51,499 nt of DNA from Akkermansiaceae bacterium (GTDB lineage Bacteria > Verrucomicrobiota > Verrucomicrobiia > Verrucomicrobiales > Akkermansiaceae). Below, in pieces: positions 16,087 to 29,130 of this stretch. Both the position numbers and the translations under genes were made by a program. Each line of letters starts with the position of its first letter. The first letter of the stretch is position 1. The notes under the pieces were generated by a model, which searched no databases, was not told the DNA's origin, and worked only from the letters and a program-made list of their open reading frames with translations. Location of the stretch: positions 1 to 51,499 of the forward strand of contig JAKMGP010000330.1 of the NCBI GenBank assembly GCA_022424905.1. The letters are read 5' to 3'.

Positions 16087-17949
16087 TTACATAGGTAATT
16101 CGATGAAACCTTCCAGCTTCCGAATACGGGTCGGGTGACGCATCTTGCGGAGTGCTTTCGCCTCGATCTGACGAATTCGTTCACGGGTGACTTGAAACTG
16201 TCTGCCAACTTCCTCAAGAGTTCGGGAATAGCCATCTTTAAGTCCAAAGCGCTGCTCGAGAACCTCTCGCTCTCGCTCGGTTAGAGTATCGAGGACCTCA
16301 ATGATCTTGTCCTTGAGCATGGCGAAACCAGCCTCCTCCATGGGGTTTTCTGCGGATTTATCTTCGATGAAGTCGCCGAATGAAGTGTCGTCGGAATCAC
16401 CAACGGGAGCTTGTAGCGATATGGGCTGCTGGGCCATCTTGAGGACGGCGCGGACACGCTCGACGGGCAAGTGAATTTCCTCGGCGATCTCGTCTGGGGT
16501 TGGTTCACGACCATATTCTTGCACGAGCTGTTTTTGGACGCGCATTAGCTTGTTGATGGTTTCGATCATGTGGACCGGTATACGGATAGTCCTAGCCTGA
16601 TCGGCGATGGAACGGGTGATCGCCTGGCGGATCCACCAGGTTGCGTAGGTCGAAAATTTGTATCCGCGACGATACTCAAATTTCTCAACCGCCTTCATGA
16701 GGCCCATATTGCCTTCCTGGATGAGATCGAGGAAAGAAAGTCCCCGGTTGGTATACTTTTTAGCGATCGAAATAACGAGGCGAAGGTTTGCTTCGACCAT
16801 TTCGGTCTTGGCTTTTAGCGCCTTACGCATCCAAAGGCGGAGACTCTTGTTAGTGTCCTCAAATTGCTCGACGTTGTGCCATGCCTCTAGAGAGAGCTCC
16901 TTGATCGCGGTCTCGGCCTCTGCGCTTTTTTTGCGGGAGTATTTCCAAATCTTCTCCTGATACTCGGCTACCACATCACAGAAATCTTCGATGACTTTTT
17001 GTTTGAAGTAGAAGCGGCTATACAGGCGGGCGATAGTTTGAAGGTTTTTTGAGAGGGTGGTCTCGAGCTTCTTTTTGCCTCGGGGTGCTTTAGCCGAGAG
17101 TTTTTTGATGATTGTGGTAGTTTCTTCGTGAGTGCTACGCACCTGATCACAAAGCTTTGGGAGGGCTTTCATGTAGCGCTCACGGCTTTCGATCTTCTTA
17201 TCGAGAATAACTCGGTCGAAGCGTTCCTTGCCGCGCATGAGTTTGTCGGCGAGGGCGAGGTATCCGCTGGCAGTGAAGCCAAAAAGATGGAGGAATTTTT
17301 GGACCTCGATTTCAGCGTCCTCGATTCGCTTGGAAATTTCGACCTCTTGCTCACGAGTAAGCAGGGGGACCTGACCCATTTGCTTGAGATACATCCGAAC
17401 GGGATCGTCGAGGATGTCGAGTTTCTGGTCTTTGGTGTCTTCTTCAGAATCGAGATCACCTTTCTTCTTGTCCTTGAAGCGGTCAACCTCGGAGGCGTCG
17501 ATGATCTCGAACTCCATTTGGCGGAGCCTTTCAAGGATGGCTTTGATATCCTCCTCCTCGATAAGGTTGTTAGGTAGGATTTCGTGAATATCGTCGTAAG
17601 TGAGATATTCTTGTTCCTTAGCAAGTTTAATGAGTTCCCGAATTTTTTCCCGAATTTCAGGAGTGTCGATACGGTTTTTTGGCTTCTTGCTCGCCTTGGT
17701 CTCGGGAGCTAGAGTCTTTTTGGTTGCCTCTTTTTTGGCTGGAGCCTTTTTGGCTGGAGCCTTTTTGGCGGCCTTTTTGGCTGGAGCCTTTTTGGCGGCC
17801 TTTTTGGCGGCCTTTTTAGCGGCCTTTTTGGCTGGAGCCTTTTTAGCGGCCTTTTTGGCAACCTTCTTAGCGGCTGATTTCTTGGCGGGGGCTTTCTTGG
17901 CTGAAGCCTTTTTGGTTACCTTCTTAGCGGTTGTTTTCTTTTTTGCCAT
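16087..17949 (-). CDS. rpoD: Primary RNA polymerase sigma-70 factor with Lys/Ala-rich N-terminal tail
   Basis: A 620-residue housekeeping sigma factor. Residues 1-80 are almost only Lys, Ala, Pro and Thr in AKKAPAKKA-type repeats, like the tail of histone H1. Next come a region 1.1-like module ([20 protein letters not shown]), region 1.2 ([22 protein letters not shown]), a non-conserved insert and region 2 ([39 protein letters not shown]). Region 3 ([13 protein letters not shown]) and region 4 ([35 protein letters not shown]) complete it. The ATG at 17949 starts [10 protein letters not shown]; the longer frame to 17991 would run over the promoter. Regions 2-4 are intact, so it should direct normal -35/-10 promoters. 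Confidence 0.96.
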
Positions 17950-17993
17950 GATGGAGAGCTGGGAAGTCGAGATGTTTTGGACACACCTCACCT

Positions 17994-19808: not shown

Positions 19809-19860
19809 TTTAAACAATCGTTTGAAAAATCTCAAAAATGATTTAAACAATCGTTTAAAC
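19809..19860 (+). promoter_or_regulatory. Tandem palindromic operators of the TetR/RND operon
   Basis: There are two nearly identical palindromes. Site 1 (19809-19827) is TTTAAACAATCGTTTGAAA. Site 2 (19842-19860) is TTTAAACAATCGTTTAAAC, with perfect 7-bp arms around AATC. The centres are 33 bp apart, about three helical turns, so two dimers could sit on one DNA face. Site 2 ends 3 bp before the tetR ATG. This arrangement is typical of autoregulation by a TetR protein. A -35-like TTGAAA lies inside site 1. Confidence 0.8.
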
Positions 19861-19863
19861 TCA

Positions 19864-20493
19864 ATGGCGAAAATTGAAAGCACATGTGGGACACGGGTTG
19901 CTCTAATGGAGGCAGCTGCCGCTTTGTTTGCTGAAAAAGGTTTCGAAGTGGTTTCGGTCCGGGAGATTACCACACTTGCACGAGCTAATGTGGCTTCGGT
20001 CAAGTACCACTTCGGATCACGAGAGGGATTGATCGATGCAGTGGTGGCTCGCATGGCTAAGCCGGTAAATGACGAGCGCCTGAAAAGAATCGAAGAACTT
20101 GAGGGGCTTGAAGCAGTAACGGTCACCGAGCTTATCACAGCATTTTTTGAGCCTCTTTTTTCGCAGATCCAAAATAGTCCTCTTAGTGAAAAGCTTTTTA
20201 CTAAGTTGATGGGAAGAGTGGTGGGAGATCGTTCTTATGAATTGCCGGAGGAAGTGATGGGACAATTCCGTGAAGTAGCCTCTCGCTATGTCCCCGCTTT
20301 TATGGAGGCCTGTCCGGGCTTATCTGCTGATGACGTGTTTTGGCGGATTCATTTTTGCTTTGGTGTTCTTGCTAACACGCTAACTCACCGTGATATCCTC
20401 AAAAAGATTAGTGATGGGAAAATAGGTGATGAAAAACTTTCAGTGACACTCAAACGCATTATCGATTTCTGCGACGCAGGTTTTAGACAATGA
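19864..20493 (+). CDS. TetR-family transcriptional regulator of the efflux/PKS operon
   Basis: A 209-residue repressor. The N-terminal helix-turn-helix is clear: AAALFAEKGFEVVSVREITTLARANVASVKYHFGSREGLIDAVV at about 13-56, with the HTH and the YHFGSRE signature. The C-terminal ligand/dimer domain is typical in length; it includes a segment like that of the DUF1956/CerR-type group (LFTKLMGRVVGD), though I am unsure of the subgroup. The ATG at 19864 was chosen because an upstream in-frame TTG at 19822 lies inside the operator. The stop overlaps the start of the outer-membrane factor gene (ATGA). It probably represses its own operon and is released by a small ligand, perhaps the polyketide made by the last gene. 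Confidence 0.88.
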   Translation: MAKIESTCGTRVALMEAAAALFAEKGFEVVSVREITTLARANVASVKYHFGSREGLIDAVVARMAKPVNDERLKRIEELEGLEAVTVTELITAFFEPLFSQIQNSPLSEKLFTKLMGRVVGDRSYELPEEVMGQFREVASRYVPAFMEACPGLSADDVFWRIHFCFGVLANTLTHRDILKKISDGKIGDEKLSVTLKRIIDFCDAGFRQ

Positions 20494-21902
20494 AAAAGAT
20501 TCTCCATCTTATAGCGGCTGTGCTGGCTGGTTGCTCAGCAAGTATTCCCGAATCGCGAATGGAAGTAGTTAAAAAGGGGGTTCCATTGCGTTGGTCGGCA
20601 AGCCCAGAAGCTTTGGCTGGGATTGATACAAATTGGGTCCGGCGTCTTGGAGGATCTCGGGCCGAGGCTTTGGTGAGTGAGGCCTTTCGGCGTAATCCTG
20701 ATATGCGGGTTGCCGCCGAGAGGGTTAATCGAGCTATCGCTTCAGCAAAGTCCGCAGGAGCAGCAATGAAGCCTCAGGTTTCAGCTGGCCTCAATACTAG
20801 CCGTCAAAAGCAACTCTTTATTGGCATACCACTTGGCGGCGAAGGTGGTATTCCTTCGGCTAACTTCAGCAACTTTGGAGCTAATATGACGGTTTCGTGG
20901 GAGCCCGATATTTGGGGCCTCCGTCGAGCGGAGCAGGCGGCCCTGTTAGCTGATGCTCAAGCCGAAGGGAATGCTTACCGTGCTGCACGAGCCTCTCTTG
21001 CAGCCCAAGTGATGAGATCTTGGCTGGCTCTTGCGGAGGCTAACGAGCAAATCATGTTAGCGATGGAAACGCAGGAACTTCTCAGGGCGACGAAGGAGAT
21101 CGTTATTGACCGTTACAACAATGCTCTTGCTGCCGATGGTGGATCTGCCGCCGAGGTTCGATTAGCCGAGAGTGAGGTTGCGACTAACAAAGCTTTGATT
21201 GCGCAGCGTAAGGGTGAACGGGAGCAGGCGGTTAGGCAATTAGAGTTGCTTCTGGGGAGGTATCCTAAGGGCATACTACAGGGTGTGGTCTTTCTGCCTG
21301 AAGTTCCGGCTACACCACCATCAGGTTTGCCGTCCGAGCTGCTTTTACGTCGACCCGATATTCTCGAAGCGGAGCGCCGTTTCGCCTCGTCTGGGAGTCT
21401 TGTTAAGAAGGCTAAGCGTGCCTCTTATCCCAGTTTTATCCTTACGAGCGGTGCTGGGACGACAACCGATACAATGCGAACGATTTTCAATTCTGATTTT
21501 GGGGTTTGGTCACTAGCGGGTGGTTTGACCCAGCCGATTTGGGCGGGTGGAAAATTGCGGACAGAATATGCTAAATACCAGGGGGATGATCGCTCGAAAC
21601 TTGCTGAGCTACAAAGCGTCGTGCTCAAAGCGTTCGGCGAAGTTGAGCAGGCGATGGTAGCTGAAAAATTTTTATTTTCCCGTGAGCAGGCTATTATCGA
21701 AGCACTCAAATTTGCCGAGGAAGCTACAGATGCGGCAGCTAGCGAATATGCGGGTGGTTTGGGCGAAGTCCTGACTTTGATTACTGCACAGAGAAGTCGG
21801 ATCAATCTAGCTTCGCAAAAAACAACTCTAAAGAGGCTACGCCTCGATAATCGAATTACTCTTCATCTCGCTTTGGGTGGAGATTATCGATCTCAAAATT
21901 AA
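20490..21902 (+). CDS. RND efflux outer-membrane factor (OprM/NodT family lipoprotein)
   Basis: A 470-residue TolC-like lipoprotein. The lipobox is LAGC-S (Cys15). It has two related halves rich in long helices, with family landmarks VSWEPDIWGLRRAEQA (around 130-145), LLLGRYPKG, LPSELLLRRPDILEAERR (around 277-294), LTQPIWAGGKLR and a C-terminal LALGGDYR. It forms the trimeric outer-membrane and periplasmic channel of a tripartite pump. It starts in the TetR stop codon and ends 6 bp before the membrane-fusion gene. Confidence 0.93.
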   Translation: MKKILHLIAAVLAGCSASIPESRMEVVKKGVPLRWSASPEALAGIDTNWVRRLGGSRAEALVSEAFRRNPDMRVAAERVNRAIASAKSAGAAMKPQVSAGLNTSRQKQLFIGIPLGGEGGIPSANFSNFGANMTVSWEPDIWGLRRAEQAALLADAQAEGNAYRAARASLAAQVMRSWLALAEANEQIMLAMETQELLRATKEIVIDRYNNALAADGGSAAEVRLAESEVATNKALIAQRKGEREQAVRQLELLLGRYPKGILQGVVFLPEVPATPPSGLPSELLLRRPDILEAERRFASSGSLVKKAKRASYPSFILTSGAGTTTDTMRTIFNSDFGVWSLAGGLTQPIWAGGKLRTEYAKYQGDDRSKLAELQSVVLKAFGEVEQAMVAEKFLFSREQAIIEALKFAEEATDAAASEYAGGLGEVLTLITAQRSRINLASQKTTLKRLRLDNRITLHLALGGDYRSQN

Positions 21903-21908
21903 GTGATT

Positions 21909-23069
21909 ATGAAAACTGTCATTACGACCATCGTTGCTATCGTTACCGTCCTAGGATTGACGATTTTTGGAGTTTATCTTCTCAAGGAAAATGCGCCCGA
22001 AGCTGAAAAAAAGAAAAGGGTGGAAGCAACTCCTGTCGTCGAGGTTGAGGTCGTCAGTAAGAGTGATCTTAAATTTTCTCTTGAGAGCGAGGGAGTCGTC
22101 GTGGCGCGCCGGGAGACCATTCTTTCCCCACAGGTTGGCGGCAGGCTTGCGCTTGTGGATGATAGGTTTGAGGTAGGGGCAACTTACAAAAAAGGGCACG
22201 TAATTGCTGAGATTGATGCGGTTGATTATCAGGCTGCGGTTGCGCAGGCGGATTCAACCCTCGCAGATGCAGAATTAGCTTTAATTCAAGAAGAAGCTCG
22301 GGCCCAACAAGCGGTGCGGGATTGGGAGAAAATTGGTGGAGCAAAACCAGCGAGTGATCTCGTGTTACGGGTCCCGTTTTTAAAAAGTGCAAAGGCGCGG
22401 GTGGCGGCGGCAATTGCTGCTAGAGATAAGGCGGGAGCTGATCTGGCCCGGACAAAGATTGTCGCGCCCTTCGACTGTCGTGTTCGATCGGTAAATATGA
22501 ATCTCGGGGCGACCATGGTTCCTGGAGCAAAGCTTGGAACGATTTATGATCCTAATAATCTCATGATTCGATTGCCGTTCTCATTAGATGATTACGCGCA
22601 GTTGCCAGAAAAAACGGACATTACTCTTAATGCTGATATCGGAGGGAAATTGTACGAGTGGAAAGCTGAGATGATGTGGGAGCTGGGAGAGGTTGATCAA
22701 CAGACCCTTTCCTCGTTTGTGTTGGCTAAGATTATTGCGAATAGCGATCATCCCTATCGATTCAGTCTGCCTTCGCCGGGGGTGTTTCTCAATGCTACCG
22801 TGAAGGGTGGTGTTTTGCCGGGGGTGATTGCGGTTCCCCGCTCCGCTGTTCGGGGGCAGAACCAGATTCTTGTGCTTAATGGGGAGAATAAGTTGGAGCA
22901 GCGTGAGTTGATGGTGGCTCGGCAAAATGCCAATCACGTCTTTGCAACTCAAGGAATTGCTGATGGTGAGAAGGTAATCCTCACAAAGGTTGATATGCCG
23001 GTTCCGGGAATGACCTTGGAATCGACAAAGATAGACGGAAAAGAAGAGGGCAAAATCAAGTCCAACTAA
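21909..23069 (+). CDS. RND efflux periplasmic adaptor (membrane-fusion protein)
   Basis: A 386-residue HlyD/AcrA-type adaptor. The N-terminal membrane anchor is at about 3-25. A barrel-sandwich half (EGVVVARRETILSPQVGGRL) is followed by a long coiled-coil hairpin at about 100-175 rich in Ala/Glu/Arg. The second lipoyl half is DLARTKIVAPFDCRVRSVNMNLGATM, then a beta-barrel and membrane-proximal domain (GVIAVPRSAVRGQNQILVL). No lipobox Cys is present, so anchoring is by the transmembrane helix. The ATG at 21909 is used; a GTG six bases upstream is in frame. It links the outer-membrane factor to the RND pump encoded 4 bp downstream. Confidence 0.92.
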   Translation: MKTVITTIVAIVTVLGLTIFGVYLLKENAPEAEKKKRVEATPVVEVEVVSKSDLKFSLESEGVVVARRETILSPQVGGRLALVDDRFEVGATYKKGHVIAEIDAVDYQAAVAQADSTLADAELALIQEEARAQQAVRDWEKIGGAKPASDLVLRVPFLKSAKARVAAAIAARDKAGADLARTKIVAPFDCRVRSVNMNLGATMVPGAKLGTIYDPNNLMIRLPFSLDDYAQLPEKTDITLNADIGGKLYEWKAEMMWELGEVDQQTLSSFVLAKIIANSDHPYRFSLPSPGVFLNATVKGGVLPGVIAVPRSAVRGQNQILVLNGENKLEQRELMVARQNANHVFATQGIADGEKVILTKVDMPVPGMTLESTKIDGKEEGKIKSN

Positions 23070-23073
23070 AATC

Positions 23074-26000
23074 ATGCAGAAGTCGATCAAATGGTTCAGT
23101 GGCAATCACGTCGCGGCCAATTTTCTCATGCTGGCCGTCTTAATCGCCGGTTTTACGGCATGGTTTCAGCTCCGAAAAGAGGTCTTTCCGGAGACCTCTT
23201 TTGATGCAGTGATTGTTAGTGTTCCGTATCCAAATGCAACTCCCGAAGAAGTTGTAAATGGCGTGGTGATTCCGATCGAGGAAGCGATTGCGGAGGTTGA
23301 GGGCATAAAACAGGTGACTTCAGCTGCTGTCAGAAATATTGGGACGCTGACGATTGAGGTCGAGACTGGTTACAATACCCGGGATGTCATGGGTGACATA
23401 CAAACTAACGTTGATGCTATCGATAATTTTGCTGAAAAAGCCGAGGAGCCAAAATTTGAAGAATTAGTCGTAAATCGGCAAATTCTTAGTCTTGCCATCA
23501 CCGCTAATACAGACGAAGGCAGCCTTCGCCAATATGCTGAAGGAATTCGTGACGGCTTGCTGACCTATCTTCCACCCAAGCCGGAATCGAAAAAAAAGGC
23601 CTTTTTTGCCGATCCTGGAGGTTTTGTTCAAGGTTTGCTGAAAGGGCAGGAGACCATCAAGAAAGTGGAGTTGGCATCGGTCCGTCCGTATGAAATTTCG
23701 ATCGAAGTTTCAGAGGATGCCCTGAGGCGATACAACCTCACGTTGCAACAAGTCGCGATGGCTGTTCGCGGCGCTTCGCTTGATCTCCCCAGTGGATCGG
23801 TGAAAACGAATTCAGGCGAAATTGTGGTGAGGGCCCTAGGCCGGAAATACCGTGGCGAGGAGTTTCGGGAAGTGACTGTCAAAAAGATGCCAGATGGATC
23901 TGATTTGAGCTTAGGTGAGATTGCTACGGTAATCGATGGGTTCGAGGATATCGAACTCGTGTCTACATTTAATGGTCGCCCGGCGGTCGTGCTTCATGTC
24001 TTTCGCGTAGCCGATCAAGACACTTTGGCGATTGCTAAGCTTGCTCGGGAATACGTGGATTCACTGGAGAAGCCTGAGGGTGTAGAGATCGATGTTTGGA
24101 ATGATCAAAGTGTTATTCTTAAGGGCCGATTAGATCTCCTCAAAAGCAATATTGGGATAGGACTCATTCTAGTTCTATTAGTGCTTGCGCTTTTTCTTCG
24201 GCCAAGTTTGGCGTTTTTGGTGGCACTGGGGATTCCGGTTTCCTTCGCTGGTGGTCTCTGGTTGATGCCTGGCCTTGGGATTTCGATCAATATGATTTCG
24301 GCCTTCGCTTTTATTCTTGTTTTGGGAATTGTAGTGGATGATGCCATTGTGGTTGGTGAGAACGTTTATACCCGTATTCAGCAAGGTGAGCACCCTAAAG
24401 AAGCGAGTTGGAAAGGGACCCACGAGGTAGGGATCGTAGTGATTTTTGGGATTCTTACGACTATGGCGGCGTTTACCCCTATGCTTGGCCTGAGTGGAGT
24501 GAGTGGGAAGATTTGGCCTAATATTCCCTTGGTGGTGATTCCGGTTTTGGGTTTCTCCTTGTTGCAGTCAAAGTTTGTTTTGCCTGCTCACCTTGCACTT
24601 CTCAAACCGCATTCTACAACTCCAAGTGCTAATCCATTGACTCGCTTGCAGCGTAGGATTTCGAGTGGGCTTGAGCGATTTGTGAAGGTCGTTTATTCCC
24701 CGTTTCTAAAGTTATGTTTGAAGTTTCGTTACGTGGTTTGGACTGTTTTTATTGCCCTCGTAATCCTTTCGGTGTCGCTGGTGAAAACTGGATGGTTGCC
24801 CTTTCAGTTTTTTCCGAAAGTGGAGGGTGAAATTTTGTCTGCAAAACTTGAAATGCCTTTGGGGGCCCCGTTTTATAACACTCAGAAAGTGGTGAAGCGG
24901 TTGGAAGCGGCAGCTCTTAAACTTGGTGAAACAACGCAGGACAACGATGGAAATTCGATTGTTGTCAATCAGCTGGCGACGGCAGGGATGCAGCCATTCC
25001 AGGGTGGGTTTTCGCCTAACACACCCACTGGAACTCACTTAGGGGAAGTTACCCTTGAGCTTGCGGCCGCAAAGAATCGGGACCTTTCCAGTGCAGAATT
25101 AAAATCGATGTGGCAGGAGCTTGCAGGTGAAATTCCAGAGGTGGTTTCCCTCGCATTCAGGGCAGAAACGGCGGCAGGTGGGAATGCGATCGATATCAAT
25201 TTCACTGGGCCGGATAACGATCAATTGGTAGCAGCTGCAACGTGGGCGACTGAGCGTTTGCGTAATGATTACAAAGGAGTGGTTGATGTTTCAAATTCCG
25301 ATCGGCGTGGTCGAGAGGAGTTGATCGTCCGTGATCTAACGCCGCGAGGTAAGGCCTTAGGTTTCGATCTTAATATGGTGATGAACCAGGTTCGGGATGC
25401 TTTCTATGGCAATGAAGTGCAGCGACTGCAGCGCGGTCGTGACGAGGTGAAAGTGATGGTCCGCTACCCCGAATCAGAGCGGGGCTCGCTTTCCAATTTT
25501 GAGAAGATGAAACTAAGAACCCCAGAGGGAGAAGAGGTGGCCCTCCTTGATGTCGTGGTTCCTGAATACGGTCGAGGTCCTGCTACGGTGACCCGTGTGG
25601 ATAGGTTTCGCACGATCAGCCTCAAGGCTGATGTTGATCTCGCTAGAGGTTATAATGCAAACGAGATTGTAGAAAAATACACTGACGAGGTTCTCGAAAA
25701 AATTGCAGAAAAATTCCCAGGGGTGCGGTATTCCTTCAAGGGTGAGCAGAGCGATCAACGCGACAGTATTCGCGAGATGGGGATCGGCTTTGTAGGCGCC
25801 CTATTACTCATGTATGTTTTGATGGCGATCCCACTAAAAAGCTATTTGCAGCCTCTGATCGTGATGAGCGTGATCCCATTTGGAATGGTTGGCGCGGTAG
25901 CGGGACATATTTTCATGGGGCTGAATATGAGCATCATGTCAATGTGTGGGATTGTTGCACTGGCTGGAGTTGTGGTGAATGACTCCTTAGTCCTCGTTGA

Positions 26001-26340
26001 CTACGTGAATCGTAATAGGAAAAGTGGAACGGGTATTTTGGAGGCCGCTCGGAATGCTGGAGTGAGGCGATTCCGCCCGATCCTTCTGACTTCGCTTACG
26101 ACTTTTGTGGGCCTCATGCCGATGCTTTTGGAAGATGATATGCAGGCAAAGTTTCTCATACCCATGGCTGTTTCGCTCGGCTTTGGCATTCTCTTTGCGA
26201 CCGCGATTACTCTCATCTTGGTTCCATCGCTCTATGTGATTCTTGAAGATATTCGTAACCTGGGCACTGATTTGCTCACAAGTCGAAATAAACCTTTGGA
26301 AAATCCACAAACTAGGGGAAGTTCATCGCATGTTCCTTGA
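23074..26340 (+). CDS. RND-family efflux pump (HAE1/AcrB-like)
   Basis: A 1088-residue inner-membrane proton antiporter. The N-terminus ([19 protein letters not shown]) is the first membrane helix; [20 protein letters not shown] is typical of the porter domain. A transmembrane helix near 405-425 carries the proton-relay Asp pair ([16 protein letters not shown]). The duplicated C-terminal half has a matching segment ([21 protein letters not shown]). There is an unusual Lys-rich insert at about 168-190 ([14 protein letters not shown]) that I do not recall from AcrB. Substrate unknown. The final codons overlap the start of the polyketide synthase gene by 11 bp. Confidence 0.93.
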
Positions 26341-27337
26341 AGCTCTTGCGAGCGCCTTTCCTCCTTATACTTACACCCAAAAAGAGTGTTTTGAATTCAC
26401 GAAGACGACTTCTTCCTATCAGTCACTAAGTAGGCGCGGGCAAGGGATCATGGAGAGGGTGCTCTTAGGAGATTCTGGGATTAAACAGCGAAATTTTTGC
26501 ACTGATAACCCTGCTGCGATGTTCAAGGTGGGGGCGCAGAAGCTCAATGAATACTTTGAAAAGGAAGCTCCAGCCCTTTCGATTGCGGCACTGGAAAAAA
26601 CGGGTGTCGATCCGTCTGAAATTGATGCTCTTATCATCTGCACCTGCACAGGATATCTGTGCCCTGGGGTAACAAGTCATGTGGCTGAGAATCTGGGAAT
26701 GAGAGACGATGTGTATCTTCAAGATATTGTCGGCTTAGGCTGCGGCGCAGCCCTTCCAATGATGCGCGCTGCCGAGGGGTTTCTGGCCGCAAATCCTGGT
26801 AAAAAAGTCGCAACAGTGGCGGTCGAAATTTGTTCGGCGGCTCTCTTTATGAATGAAGAGCCTGGCGTGCTCATTAGCATGTGTTTATTTGGTGATGGTG
26901 CTTCAGCGGCGATTTGGTCTGATGAAGGAGCTGATGGGAAGTGGAAGGTGGGAAAGTTCGACACGATTCATGTTCCCGAGCATAGGGAAAAAATCCGGTT
27001 CATTAATTCTGGTGGAAAGCTACAGAATAAACTTCATCGGACGGTTCCCGAATTGGCGGCAGATGCAGTTGAAAAGCTTTGGCAGAATCGGCAGGGTGAT
27101 CCGGATCAAGTGCTTGCGCATACTGGAGGGAGAGATGTGATTGAAGCTCTCGAAAAGCGAATGGGATGGGATTTACCTGAAACACGCGCGGTACTGAAAA
27201 AGACTGGAAATTGCTCTAGTCCCTGCATTTTTTTCGCTCTGGAGGAGCGTTTGAAGCAATCAGAAAATGATTCTCGCTATTGGTTGACTAGTTTCGGTGC
27301 GGGGTTTGCGGCTCATTCTTGTGAGATGTGGCGTTGA
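26330..27337 (+). CDS. Type III polyketide synthase (chalcone synthase-like)
   Basis: A 335-residue thiolase-fold enzyme. The type III PKS triad is visible: Cys138 in [15 protein letters not shown], His264 in LAHTGGRDV (usually HPGG) and Asn294 in [10 protein letters not shown] (usually GNMSS). The C-terminal GFGPG-type loop reads [10 protein letters not shown]. These homodimers extend a CoA starter with malonyl-CoA and cyclise to pyrones, resorcinols or phloroglucinols. The family call is firm; a KAS III-like role is less likely because of the GLGCGAA motif. The ATG at 26330 has AGGGGAA 9 bp upstream and lies inside the RND gene. The product is unknown. Position in an efflux operon suggests the product is exported or sensed by the TetR protein. 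Confidence 0.88.
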
Positions 27338-27344
27338 CACATCC

Positions 27345-27358
27345 TCATCTTCAGATGA
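27345..27358 (+). repeat. Small inverted repeat between the PKS and FKBP genes
   Basis: TCATCT-TC-AGATGA is a perfect 6-bp inverted repeat in the 34-bp gap. A TTGACA at 27334-27339 overlaps the PKS stop, but I see no matching -10. It might be an operator or a weak attenuator; the FKBP gene may still be read from the upstream operon. Confidence 0.3.
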
Positions 27359-27371
27359 CCGTCCCTCCGAC

Positions 27372-29069
27372 ATGATTAATAGAAAACGCCGGCTGATTTC
27401 CGGTTTACTAAGTGGCGCTCTCGGTTTGACTGCGATTGCTCAAGAGCCTGCAGCTCCGGCAGGCGATCAGTTCAAGGCACCTGCAAACGTGGCGGCCGCT
27501 CCCGCTGAAGCTGCAAAAACACAGTCTGGCTTGGCTTCATTAGTTCTGAAGAAGGGGACTGGAACAGAGAAGCCTTCTGCTACCGATACGGTGAAAGTTC
27601 ACTACACCGGATGGCAGGCTTCCGACGGAACGATGTTCGATAGTTCGCTGCAGAGGGGACAGCCTGCTGAGTTCGCTCTTAATGGGGTTATCAAGGGTTG
27701 GACTGAAGGTCTCCAATTAATGGTTGTTGGAGAAAAGCGCCGCTTTTGGATTCCTTCTGATCTAGCCTATGGCGACCAAGGACGGGTTGCTGGTAATCTT
27801 ACTTTTGACGTGGAGCTGCTTGAGATCGTCAAACCTCCAGCAGCGCCTAAAGAACTTGTTGCTCCGGCCGATGCTCTTGCTACCGAGTCCGGGCTAAAAT
27901 CCAAGATTCTGAAGGTCGGGGAAGGTGATCTGACTCCAGGACTCGAAGATGTCGTGACCACTCAGTTTACGGGTTGGAAAGCCGACGGGGAATTCCTGAC
28001 GACCTCAACTCGTAATCCTCAGCCTGCGCAGTTTAAGCTGAACGAACTGAACATCAAAGGGTGGACCGAGGGTCTGCAGCTTATGAAAAAGGGCGAAAAG
28101 CGCCGCTTCTGGATTCCTGCGAGCCTTGCCTTTGGTAAAGAGGGGGAAGCGCCTGCCGGTTCTCCTGCGGGCGATTTGATTTTTGACTTTGAGTTAATCG
28201 ACTTCCGCTCAGTTCCTAAGCCACCACCGCCACCGAAGGATCCAAATGCTCCAAAAGATGTTGCCGCTGCCCCCGAAAGTGCGACTAAGACGGAATCTGG
28301 AATGGCCTATACGGTCATAAAGGCTGGCGAAGGAGATGCTTCTCCGGCTGATGGTGATCTTCTTAAGGTGAATTTTAAAGGATGGGACACAAATGGTGCT
28401 TCAATTGGTTCCAGTGAAACAATGGGTGGTCCTATGGCTCTTTCTCTCGACCAATCCCCAATCAAAGGATGGGCCGAAATTTTGAAGACAATGAAAAAGG
28501 GTGAGAGTCGCCGGGTCTGGATTCCTGAGAACCTTACTTTCGAATCGAAAGGCCGTGGAGCTCCCGAAGGCGCTTTGACTTTCGACCTCGAGCTGGTTGA
28601 GTTCAAGCCAAAGCCAGTAGCACCCAAGGCCCCAGCGGATGTGGCTGCGCCTCCAGCCGATGCGACCAAAACTGCTTCGGGACTCGCCTATAAGGTTCTC
28701 AAAGCGGGAACGGGTAAGCGCAAACCGACTGCAACCGACACGGTTAAGGTCCACTATGCAGGCTGGACTACAGACGGGAAACTCTTCGATAACTCGATTG
28801 AGCGAGATGAGCAGGCTCAATTTCCTTTAAACCAGGTGATCAAAGGTTGGACCGAAGGAGTTCAATTGATGGTTGAAGGTGAAAAGAGGCGTTTTTGGAT
28901 TCCGGTTGAACTTGCCTACAATAATCAGCCGGGTAAACCTGCAGGAATGTTGGTGTTCGATATCGAACTCTTTACGATAGTTACTCCCGCGGCTCCCAAA
29001 AAAATCGAGGCTGTGACTCCGCCCATCGAGGTGAAGCCGGCTAAGCCTAAAGATAAAGCAGCCGAGTAG
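27372..29069 (+). CDS. Exported peptidyl-prolyl isomerase with four FKBP domains
   Basis: A 565-residue protein with a signal peptide (to about 23, AIAQ-EP) and four tandem FKBP domains at about 50-153, 171-278, 308-411 and 434-537, separated by Pro/Ala-rich linkers. Domains 1 and 4 keep the usual pocket: VHY(T/A)GW, FD(S/N)S, VIKGWTEG, RFWIP, LAY, and a final FD(V/I)EL. Domains 2 and 3 have lost several of these (QFTGW and NFKGW in place of VHYTGW; TTSTRN and GSSETM in place of FDSS). They are probably non-catalytic binding modules. FKBPs speed proline cis-trans isomerisation, so the likely place is folding of exported or outer-membrane proteins. It ends in a strong terminator and may be the last gene of the PKS operon. 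Confidence 0.9.
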   Translation: MINRKRRLISGLLSGALGLTAIAQEPAAPAGDQFKAPANVAAAPAEAAKTQSGLASLVLKKGTGTEKPSATDTVKVHYTGWQASDGTMFDSSLQRGQPAEFALNGVIKGWTEGLQLMVVGEKRRFWIPSDLAYGDQGRVAGNLTFDVELLEIVKPPAAPKELVAPADALATESGLKSKILKVGEGDLTPGLEDVVTTQFTGWKADGEFLTTSTRNPQPAQFKLNELNIKGWTEGLQLMKKGEKRRFWIPASLAFGKEGEAPAGSPAGDLIFDFELIDFRSVPKPPPPPKDPNAPKDVAAAPESATKTESGMAYTVIKAGEGDASPADGDLLKVNFKGWDTNGASIGSSETMGGPMALSLDQSPIKGWAEILKTMKKGESRRVWIPENLTFESKGRGAPEGALTFDLELVEFKPKPVAPKAPADVAAPPADATKTASGLAYKVLKAGTGKRKPTATDTVKVHYAGWTTDGKLFDNSIERDEQAQFPLNQVIKGWTEGVQLMVEGEKRRFWIPVELAYNNQPGKPAGMLVFDIELFTIVTPAAPKKIEAVTPPIEVKPAKPKDKAAE

Positions 29070-29095: not shown

Positions 29096-29130
29096 CAGCC
29101 TGTTACGTAATCGTAACAGGCTGTTTTTTT
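29096..29130 (+). terminator. Rho-independent terminator after the four-FKBP gene
   Basis: A perfect 12-bp stem (29096-29107 CAGCCTGTTACG with 29112-29123), a TAAT loop and seven T. It sits 26 bp after the stop codon. Confidence 0.92.

Follow-up and report, generated by a model that had tools for sequence, protein, structure and literature searches.

In the window, a stretch of 51,499 nucleotides from an Akkermansiaceae bacterium, a TetR-family regulator, the three parts of an RND efflux pump and a type III polyketide synthase (PKS) are encoded in one tight run. The reading that we favour, with moderate confidence, is that an older operon of a PsrA-like TetR and its pump gained, in one clade of a single genus, the type III PKS of a separate methyltransferase-FAD oxidoreductase-PKS pathway of the alkylresorcinol type, and that pump and synthase are now induced together. 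The layout is real, yet it looks like a lineage-specific rearrangement and not a self-contained make-and-export unit. This reading is argued from the gene order and spacing at the locus, the single clade formed by the linked PKS genes, the presence of the partner genes elsewhere, the existence of pump operons without a PKS and the remnant of a PKS tail in three congeners.

The pump-PKS locus

Open reading frames (ORFs) and domain searches confirmed five genes lying head to tail on one strand of the window, in the order and at the place given by an earlier sequence-only reading of this DNA. Together with the features around them they are:

19809-19826, + strand: operator-like palindrome TTTAAACAATCGTTTGAA, AAAC-N4-GTTT, of the PsrA-box type
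19842-19859, + strand: a further operator-like palindrome TTTAAACAATCGTTTAAA, 33 bp downstream of the first one and ending 4 bp short of the tetR ATG
19864-20493 (ATG), + strand: tetR, PsrA-like regulator (TetR_N 43.3 bits, TetR_C_30 77.6 bits)
20490-21902, + strand: outer-membrane factor (OMF), NodT type (TIGR01845 230.8 bits against a cut-off of 210; OEP)
21909-23069 (ATG; alternative GTG 21903), + strand: periplasmic adaptor (TIGR01730 130 bits against a cut-off of 94.9)
23074-26340, + strand: RND permease, AcrB superfamily (ACR_tran 520 bits; NCBIfam subfamily models match below their cut-offs)
26330-27337 (ATG), + strand: type III PKS, 335 aa, catalytic C138/H264/N294 (domains, triad, predicted fold)
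27372-29069, + strand: four-domain FKBP prolyl isomerase (FKBP_C, four stretches)
29096-29123, + strand: terminator-like hairpin and T run after the FKBP (12 pairs, 7 of them G-C)

With OMF, adaptor and RND permease co-encoded, the locus has the complement of a tripartite RND efflux system. The tetR and OMF genes overlap by 4 bp, 6 bp separate the OMF gene from the ATG of the adaptor (the two abut if the GTG at 21903 is used), 4 bp lie between the adaptor and RND genes, and the PKS starts inside the pump gene with an overlap of 11 bp. The spacing had previously been given as 4-bp overlaps or 4-6-bp gaps, with the PKS start inside the pump; the RND/PKS overlap is of 11 bp and not 4. Among the 18 congeners in which the two genes are linked, window included, the distance from RND to PKS always falls within -11 to +41 bp, and since it is kept in this way the layout cannot be put down to chance; the short spacing holds down to 73-75% PKS identity. 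An overlap is present in 11 of these 18 genomes (ten of 11 bp, one of 1 bp) and gaps of 14-41 bp in the other seven, which does not favour the description of the pump as a translational partner of the PKS.

In agreement with the single operon proposed earlier, no sign of a promoter or terminator was seen between pump and PKS. The promoter scan listed no + strand promoter-like site between 23376 and the PKS start. Of the terminator-like hairpins, the strongest (12 pairs, T run) is the one past the FKBP; weaker ones of 6-7 pairs fall within the PKS gene, at 26822, 26865 and 27202. As the total counts of the scan fall below the shuffle means it is weak evidence; the conserved spacing points the same way. 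Since the FKBP gene begins only 34 bp after the PKS, the run of genes may be longer than five and extend through the FKBP, and the hairpin at 29096-29123 is the likely end of the unit.

A TTGACA that overlaps the PKS stop, followed by N17 and GACCGT (window 27328-27372), may be the FKBP's own promoter with an unusual -10, and may also be the reason for the survival of the PKS tail in three genomes described below. By strict match, TTGACA-N17-GACCGT/GAGCGT is found before the FKBP in 13 of the 18 linked loci and in the three loci from which the PKS has gone. Outside the 26 loci there are 47 matches to TTGACA-N17-GA(C/G)CGT, which are not a clean background because the loci concerned include second copies of the same genes. 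In one linked genome (G290) the FKBP spacing was computed as 253 bp, probably an alignment effect; an ATG is visible there 34 bp past the PKS stop. Elsewhere in the window, on the minus strand at 16087-17991, an ORF reads, by its translation, as a sigma-70-type factor whose long N-terminal tail, rich in lysine and alanine (PAKKAAKKA), is histone H1-like.

The synthase and its relatives

By its domains, triad and predicted fold the enzyme is a true type III polyketide synthase. PF08392 and PF00195 score above cut-off and PF02797 just above it. C138, H264 and N294 stand, counted from the ATG at 26330, where the sequence-only reading had placed them, and are conserved without exception in the 28 aligned orthologues. 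For the predicted model (pLDDT 92) Foldseek ranks PKS11 of M. tuberculosis first; by its title that protein is an alkylpyrone synthase. At the position of Phe265 in chalcone synthase (CHS), located by alignment with a stilbene synthase, the enzyme has Asn233, also invariant in 28/28. HidC-clade enzymes carry Met at this position according to the excerpted part of PMC8086630, and the window PKS, having Asn, therefore lacks this mark of the clade. To judge from sequence the products are probably greasy phenol compounds of the alkyl-phenol type. A second PKS copy in the window genome was rejected, the sole other match being weak (32% over 118 residues) and probably due to a KAS III gene. More distant type III PKS genes, at about 26-30% identity (L393, L395, L396), occur in another family of the order, by eye near YceI-like genes; as a separate lineage with different neighbours they were set aside.

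The surroundings of the PKS were compared in a sample of 288 genomes of the order, 183 of which have a PKS match at E 1e-20 and 108 an orthologue at E 1e-50. One hundred PKS neighbourhoods were cut out, 11 from the genus of the window and 89 from other genera, and 101 loci (window included) of the 108 PKS-bearing genomes were compared. An RND gene adjoins the PKS in none of the 89 neighbourhoods outside the genus; in L037 and L119 an RND match that is unrelated (23% identity) lies some 5 kb away from the PKS. By ORFs, an FAD oxidoreductase is near the PKS in at least 83 of the 101 loci and a methyltransferase in at least 71, counts that are lower bounds because the ORF caller recovered the PKS itself in just 95 of the 101. 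The partners are mostly upstream in the order methyltransferase-oxidoreductase-PKS, with the oxidoreductase inverted or downstream in L062, L066, L071 and L074. Among named loci, taking the best 80 of 542 relatives, the gene immediately upstream of the PKS is the oxidoreductase in 64, an RND gene in 11 and neither in 4, and in one the contig ends. All 11 RND-linked loci belong to the genus of the window and are within the first 16 listed (68-93% identity); they overlap the sampled congeners and are not an independent sample. Nearly all of the 80 are labelled verrucomicrobial, with L367 assigned to Proteobacteria and L317 just to Bacterium. The PKS of the relatives is usually the last gene of a methyltransferase-FAD oxidoreductase-PKS operon, which is the layout of alkylresorcinol operons.

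Operons of this kind are known from other phyla. In Planctomycetota the PKSs of a methyltransferase-oxidoreductase-PKS operon act as alkylresorcinol synthases (PMC10896814, in excerpt). In the excerpts of PMC10896814 and PMC8086630, this operon and hidABC, the cyanobacterial hierridin operon, have the gene order of most relatives of the window PKS, with the PKS last. The window departs from both: its pathway is split, with the PKS standing behind a pump, and Asn replaces Met at the Phe265 position. RND transporters have also been described in type III PKS clusters of cyanobacteria, namely the Microcystis MKS clusters and the cytochrome b5 clusters, which share with the window the combination of RND genes and a type III PKS; the MKS clusters are hybrid type I/III with two RND and one MFS transporter, and no PsrA-like TetR is mentioned in the excerpted part of the source (PMC8086630). 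A plasmid-borne PKS of Caballeronia sp. SBC2 (L391), 34% identical over 98%, has the CTGYxCPG motif and the Asn at the Phe265 position in common with the window enzyme; its cluster begins with the PKS, followed by methyltransferase-FAD oxidoreductase-ACP-KS, and has no pump in the stretch shown. The ACP and ketosynthase of this cluster suggest ACP-bound starters for this group of PKSs. A type III PKS cluster has been reported in a verrucomicrobial isolate, transporter detail not being given in the excerpt (PMC9865893), and no description of the pump-PKS layout in Verrucomicrobiota was found among the open-access papers listed. The layout thus looks undescribed, in line with the sequence-only reading, but its kind was already known from the cyanobacterial clusters (PMC8086630, in excerpt).

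A split pathway in the genus

The genus, of the Akkermansiaceae, is one of uncultured marine bacteria, and 27 congeners were sampled, window included. The pump is present in all 27 and the PKS in 26 (G291, 87% complete, has no PKS match and is left outside the 26). The PKS lies behind the pump in 18 of the 26 and elsewhere in eight. Its absence from the pump operon of close relatives had been named in advance as evidence against a pump-PKS unit, and is thus found in these eight and not in the 18; the proposed search for the same gene order in relatives succeeded in the genus and at none of the 89 loci from other genera. In the PKS tree the linked genes form one clade (99/95).

In seven of the eight unlinked congeners the oxidoreductase stands immediately before the PKS (cut by the contig end in G299). 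The other, G301 (L252), has a PKS-FKBP pair at a third genomic site, where it follows genes of protease-like and TrkA-like type; its methyltransferase-oxidoreductase pair stands at argB already, and the genome represents an intermediate or independent state. The idea that the tailoring genes were lost from the linked genomes was rejected. Methyltransferase and FAD oxidoreductase matches are found in 27/27 congeners, some cut by contig ends or broken; in the window genome the pair is on another contig (G000:C334:14145-15757), between argB and sanA/folP, and it lies beside argB in 17 of the 18 linked genomes (the piece from G290 is without argB), as well as in G301 and G291. The genes of the pathway have therefore been kept, but split, and the earlier view that the window unit is self-contained except for its starter-CoA is not supported. 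In two congeners the loci are broken by draft-genome error or decay: G296 (L263) has a fragmented pump gene and a PKS match that is shortened and contains a stop, and G302 (L267) has the methyltransferase, oxidoreductase and argB in pieces.

Three of the unlinked congeners, G276, G269 and G268, bear on the history of the linkage. In the pump tree, a quick tree that omits the short sequences of G288 and G294, they nest with linked G275 and G298 (SH-aLRT 99), and their PKSs group with those of unlinked G254 and G293 (99/96). The pump and FKBP genes are 88 bp apart in G276, 34 bp in G269 and 86 bp in G268, and a remnant of the end of a PKS gene occupies this gap and the end of the pump gene; it is plain to see in G276 and G268, and in G269 it has decayed and the pump frame runs into it. 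All three genomes carry an intact three-gene operon elsewhere, and have argB and sanA-folP together without the methyltransferase-oxidoreductase pair (the argB side in G268 and G269 was taken from coordinates). Read most simply, the three genomes lost the two halves of the split pathway and have in their place an intact operon, obtained by transfer or present as an old second copy. It is less likely, because of the pump tree, that the PKS tail came with the FKBP as its promoter region and that no whole PKS was ever there. Under either reading the pump does not need an adjoining PKS, and the three enzymes PKS, methyltransferase and oxidoreductase appear to serve a single pathway. At its root the pump tree is ambiguous in branching order, and at least three changes of linkage are required, so that the linkage could be older and have been lost several times.

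The TetR-pump operon with its operator-like sites also occurs free of the PKS, both in congeners and in other genera. In 15 pump loci from other genera, hand-picked and so not a rate, TetR-OMF-adaptor-RND follow in that order in 13 and TetR is missing in two; none has a PKS. Less than 200 bp before tetR an exact AAAC-N4-GTTT is present in 7 of the 13, and one-mismatch sites in the other 6 (counted without a shuffle control). On these comparisons the TetR-OMF-adaptor-RND operon looks older and widespread, and the PKS looks like a lineage-specific addition. Across the 288 genomes (cut-offs E <1e-50 for the PKS and E <1e-240 for the pump) 68 have both, 40 the PKS only, 50 the pump only and 130 neither. 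Pump and PKS are accordingly not always inherited together, and neither gene needs the other. In the 276 genomes outside the genus the numbers are 56, 40, 50 and 130, an odds ratio of 3.6 (p 1e-6) that is uncorrected for ancestry.

Regulation and competing explanations

The top NCBIfam match of the TetR protein is PsrA at 117.4 bits, far below the equivalog cut-off of 300, and its best PDB match is 2fbq, which we take to be Pseudomonas PsrA, PA3006; the similarity is near full length (residues 13-208 of 209, E 5e-20). These matches point to a resemblance to PsrA-type fatty-acid sensors, a likeness and not membership. The PsrA box has been given as C/GAAAC-N2-4-GTTTG/C, with oleic acid as a releasing ligand (PMC13104628, in excerpt). 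Before tetR the window has the AAAC-N4-GTTT core twice, with outer bases T and G/A against the published C/G...G/C. Sites of this type just before the regulator gene may be a further likeness to Pseudomonas PsrA, as far as the excerpt of PMC13104628 goes; unlike that protein, the window TetR heads a pump operon and has its full 18-letter site at its own locus only. An exact search of the window genome for the 18-letter pattern TTNAAACNATCGTTTNAA finds it twice, both times before tetR, and at no other locus; with up to two mismatches there are 11+7 sites against 13+7 in the reversed control, i.e. no excess. A wider TetR regulon marked by this 18-letter site was rejected on these counts. In 19 congener loci two exact cores precede tetR in 15, one in three and none in one, and the sites are there whether or not a PKS follows, in congeners and other genera alike.

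The phl genes of Pseudomonas fluorescens offer a regulatory parallel. The repressor PhlF is a member of the TetR family, and psrA and emhABC presumably lie elsewhere than phl in this species. PhlF controls an operon with the type III PKS PhlD, which is also under direct PsrA control, and the RND pump EmhABC is listed among the factors acting on the phl product (PMC3510223, in excerpt). As may hold in the window, a type III PKS operon is under a PsrA box; unlike the window, phlF is divergent and the operon, phlACBD, is without an RND pump (PMC3510223, in excerpt).

If the PKS was captured by the pump operon as we propose, the most likely effect would be that an alkyl-phenol synthase became co-inducible with a lipid-responsive pump. 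The PsrA-like repressor would act on the operon through the two AAAC-N4-GTTT operators and would be released by a long-chain fatty acid, acyl-CoA or similar lipophile, upon which pump and PKS would be produced together. From fatty-acyl starters and malonyl-CoA for their extension, the PKS would build an alkylresorcinol or alkylpyrone, to be finished by the methyltransferase and oxidoreductase at the distant locus. The gain would lie in a synthase induced when acyl starters are plentiful; the product may or may not be carried by the pump. It counts against this explanation that the PKS has Asn233 at the position of the HidC-clade Met, that the TetR scores far below the PsrA equivalog cut-off, and that no operator was found in the 160 bp upstream of the methyltransferase-oxidoreductase pair, so that induction would reach a single gene of the three in the pathway. 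A bolder version, which we hold to be doubtful, makes the locus a lipid valve in which the repressor would sense surplus acyl chains, the captured synthase would turn them into phenolic lipids and the co-induced pump would pass these to the outer membrane, a split biosynthetic operon having then been rewired by the capture, and this undone later in one sublineage.

A PKS or PKS-FKBP segment might also have landed behind the pump by chance and be transcribed by read-through, with no regulatory or export link, the short distances being kept because bacterial gene order decays slowly. Unrelated-looking neighbours are indeed kept too (the FKBP after the PKS, and upstream of tetR genes of DNA methylase and Hsp33-like type), three congeners have a pump operon with a mere remnant of the PKS tail, and 90 of the 288 genomes have either PKS or pump without the other. 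Such neutral hitch-hiking is nevertheless somewhat unlikely, given a spacing so consistently short in all 18 linked genomes even at the lowest PKS identities, and a co-occurrence of pump and PKS above expectation outside the genus, where ancestry is uncorrected. The co-occurrence, the one tight operon and the phl parallel, with a PhlF-controlled PhlD operon and EmhABC named as one influence on the product (PMC3510223, in excerpt), would also suit the proposal of the sequence-only reading that pump and PKS are a dedicated biosynthesis-and-export unit whose TetR senses the polyketide. That proposal is weakened by the PKS-free pump operons and by the independent occurrence of either gene, and we regard it as quite improbable: the regulator is most like PsrA and keeps its operators where no PKS follows, the partner enzymes are at another locus, and pump and PKS are apart in eight congeners. 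Finally, the split itself, and the lack of a second good PKS match in the window genome for the pair to serve, could mean that the PKS now works alone on a new product while the methyltransferase-oxidoreductase pair serves another pathway. This we think extremely improbable, as the pair is retained in 27/27 congeners, and as G276, G268 and G269 lack both halves at the split sites yet have the intact three-gene operon, which fits one pathway.

The locus is a clear example of a three-gene natural-product pathway in which one enzyme moved under a different and older regulator while its partners stayed elsewhere, with a likely later loss of linkage that is marked by a footprint. It also carries a warning: two tailoring genes are overlooked when the window is taken for a self-contained cluster. 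Were the TetR a fatty-acid sensor, the arrangement would connect acyl supply with the synthesis of phenolic lipids in a way open to testing, in a phylum that has been little studied.
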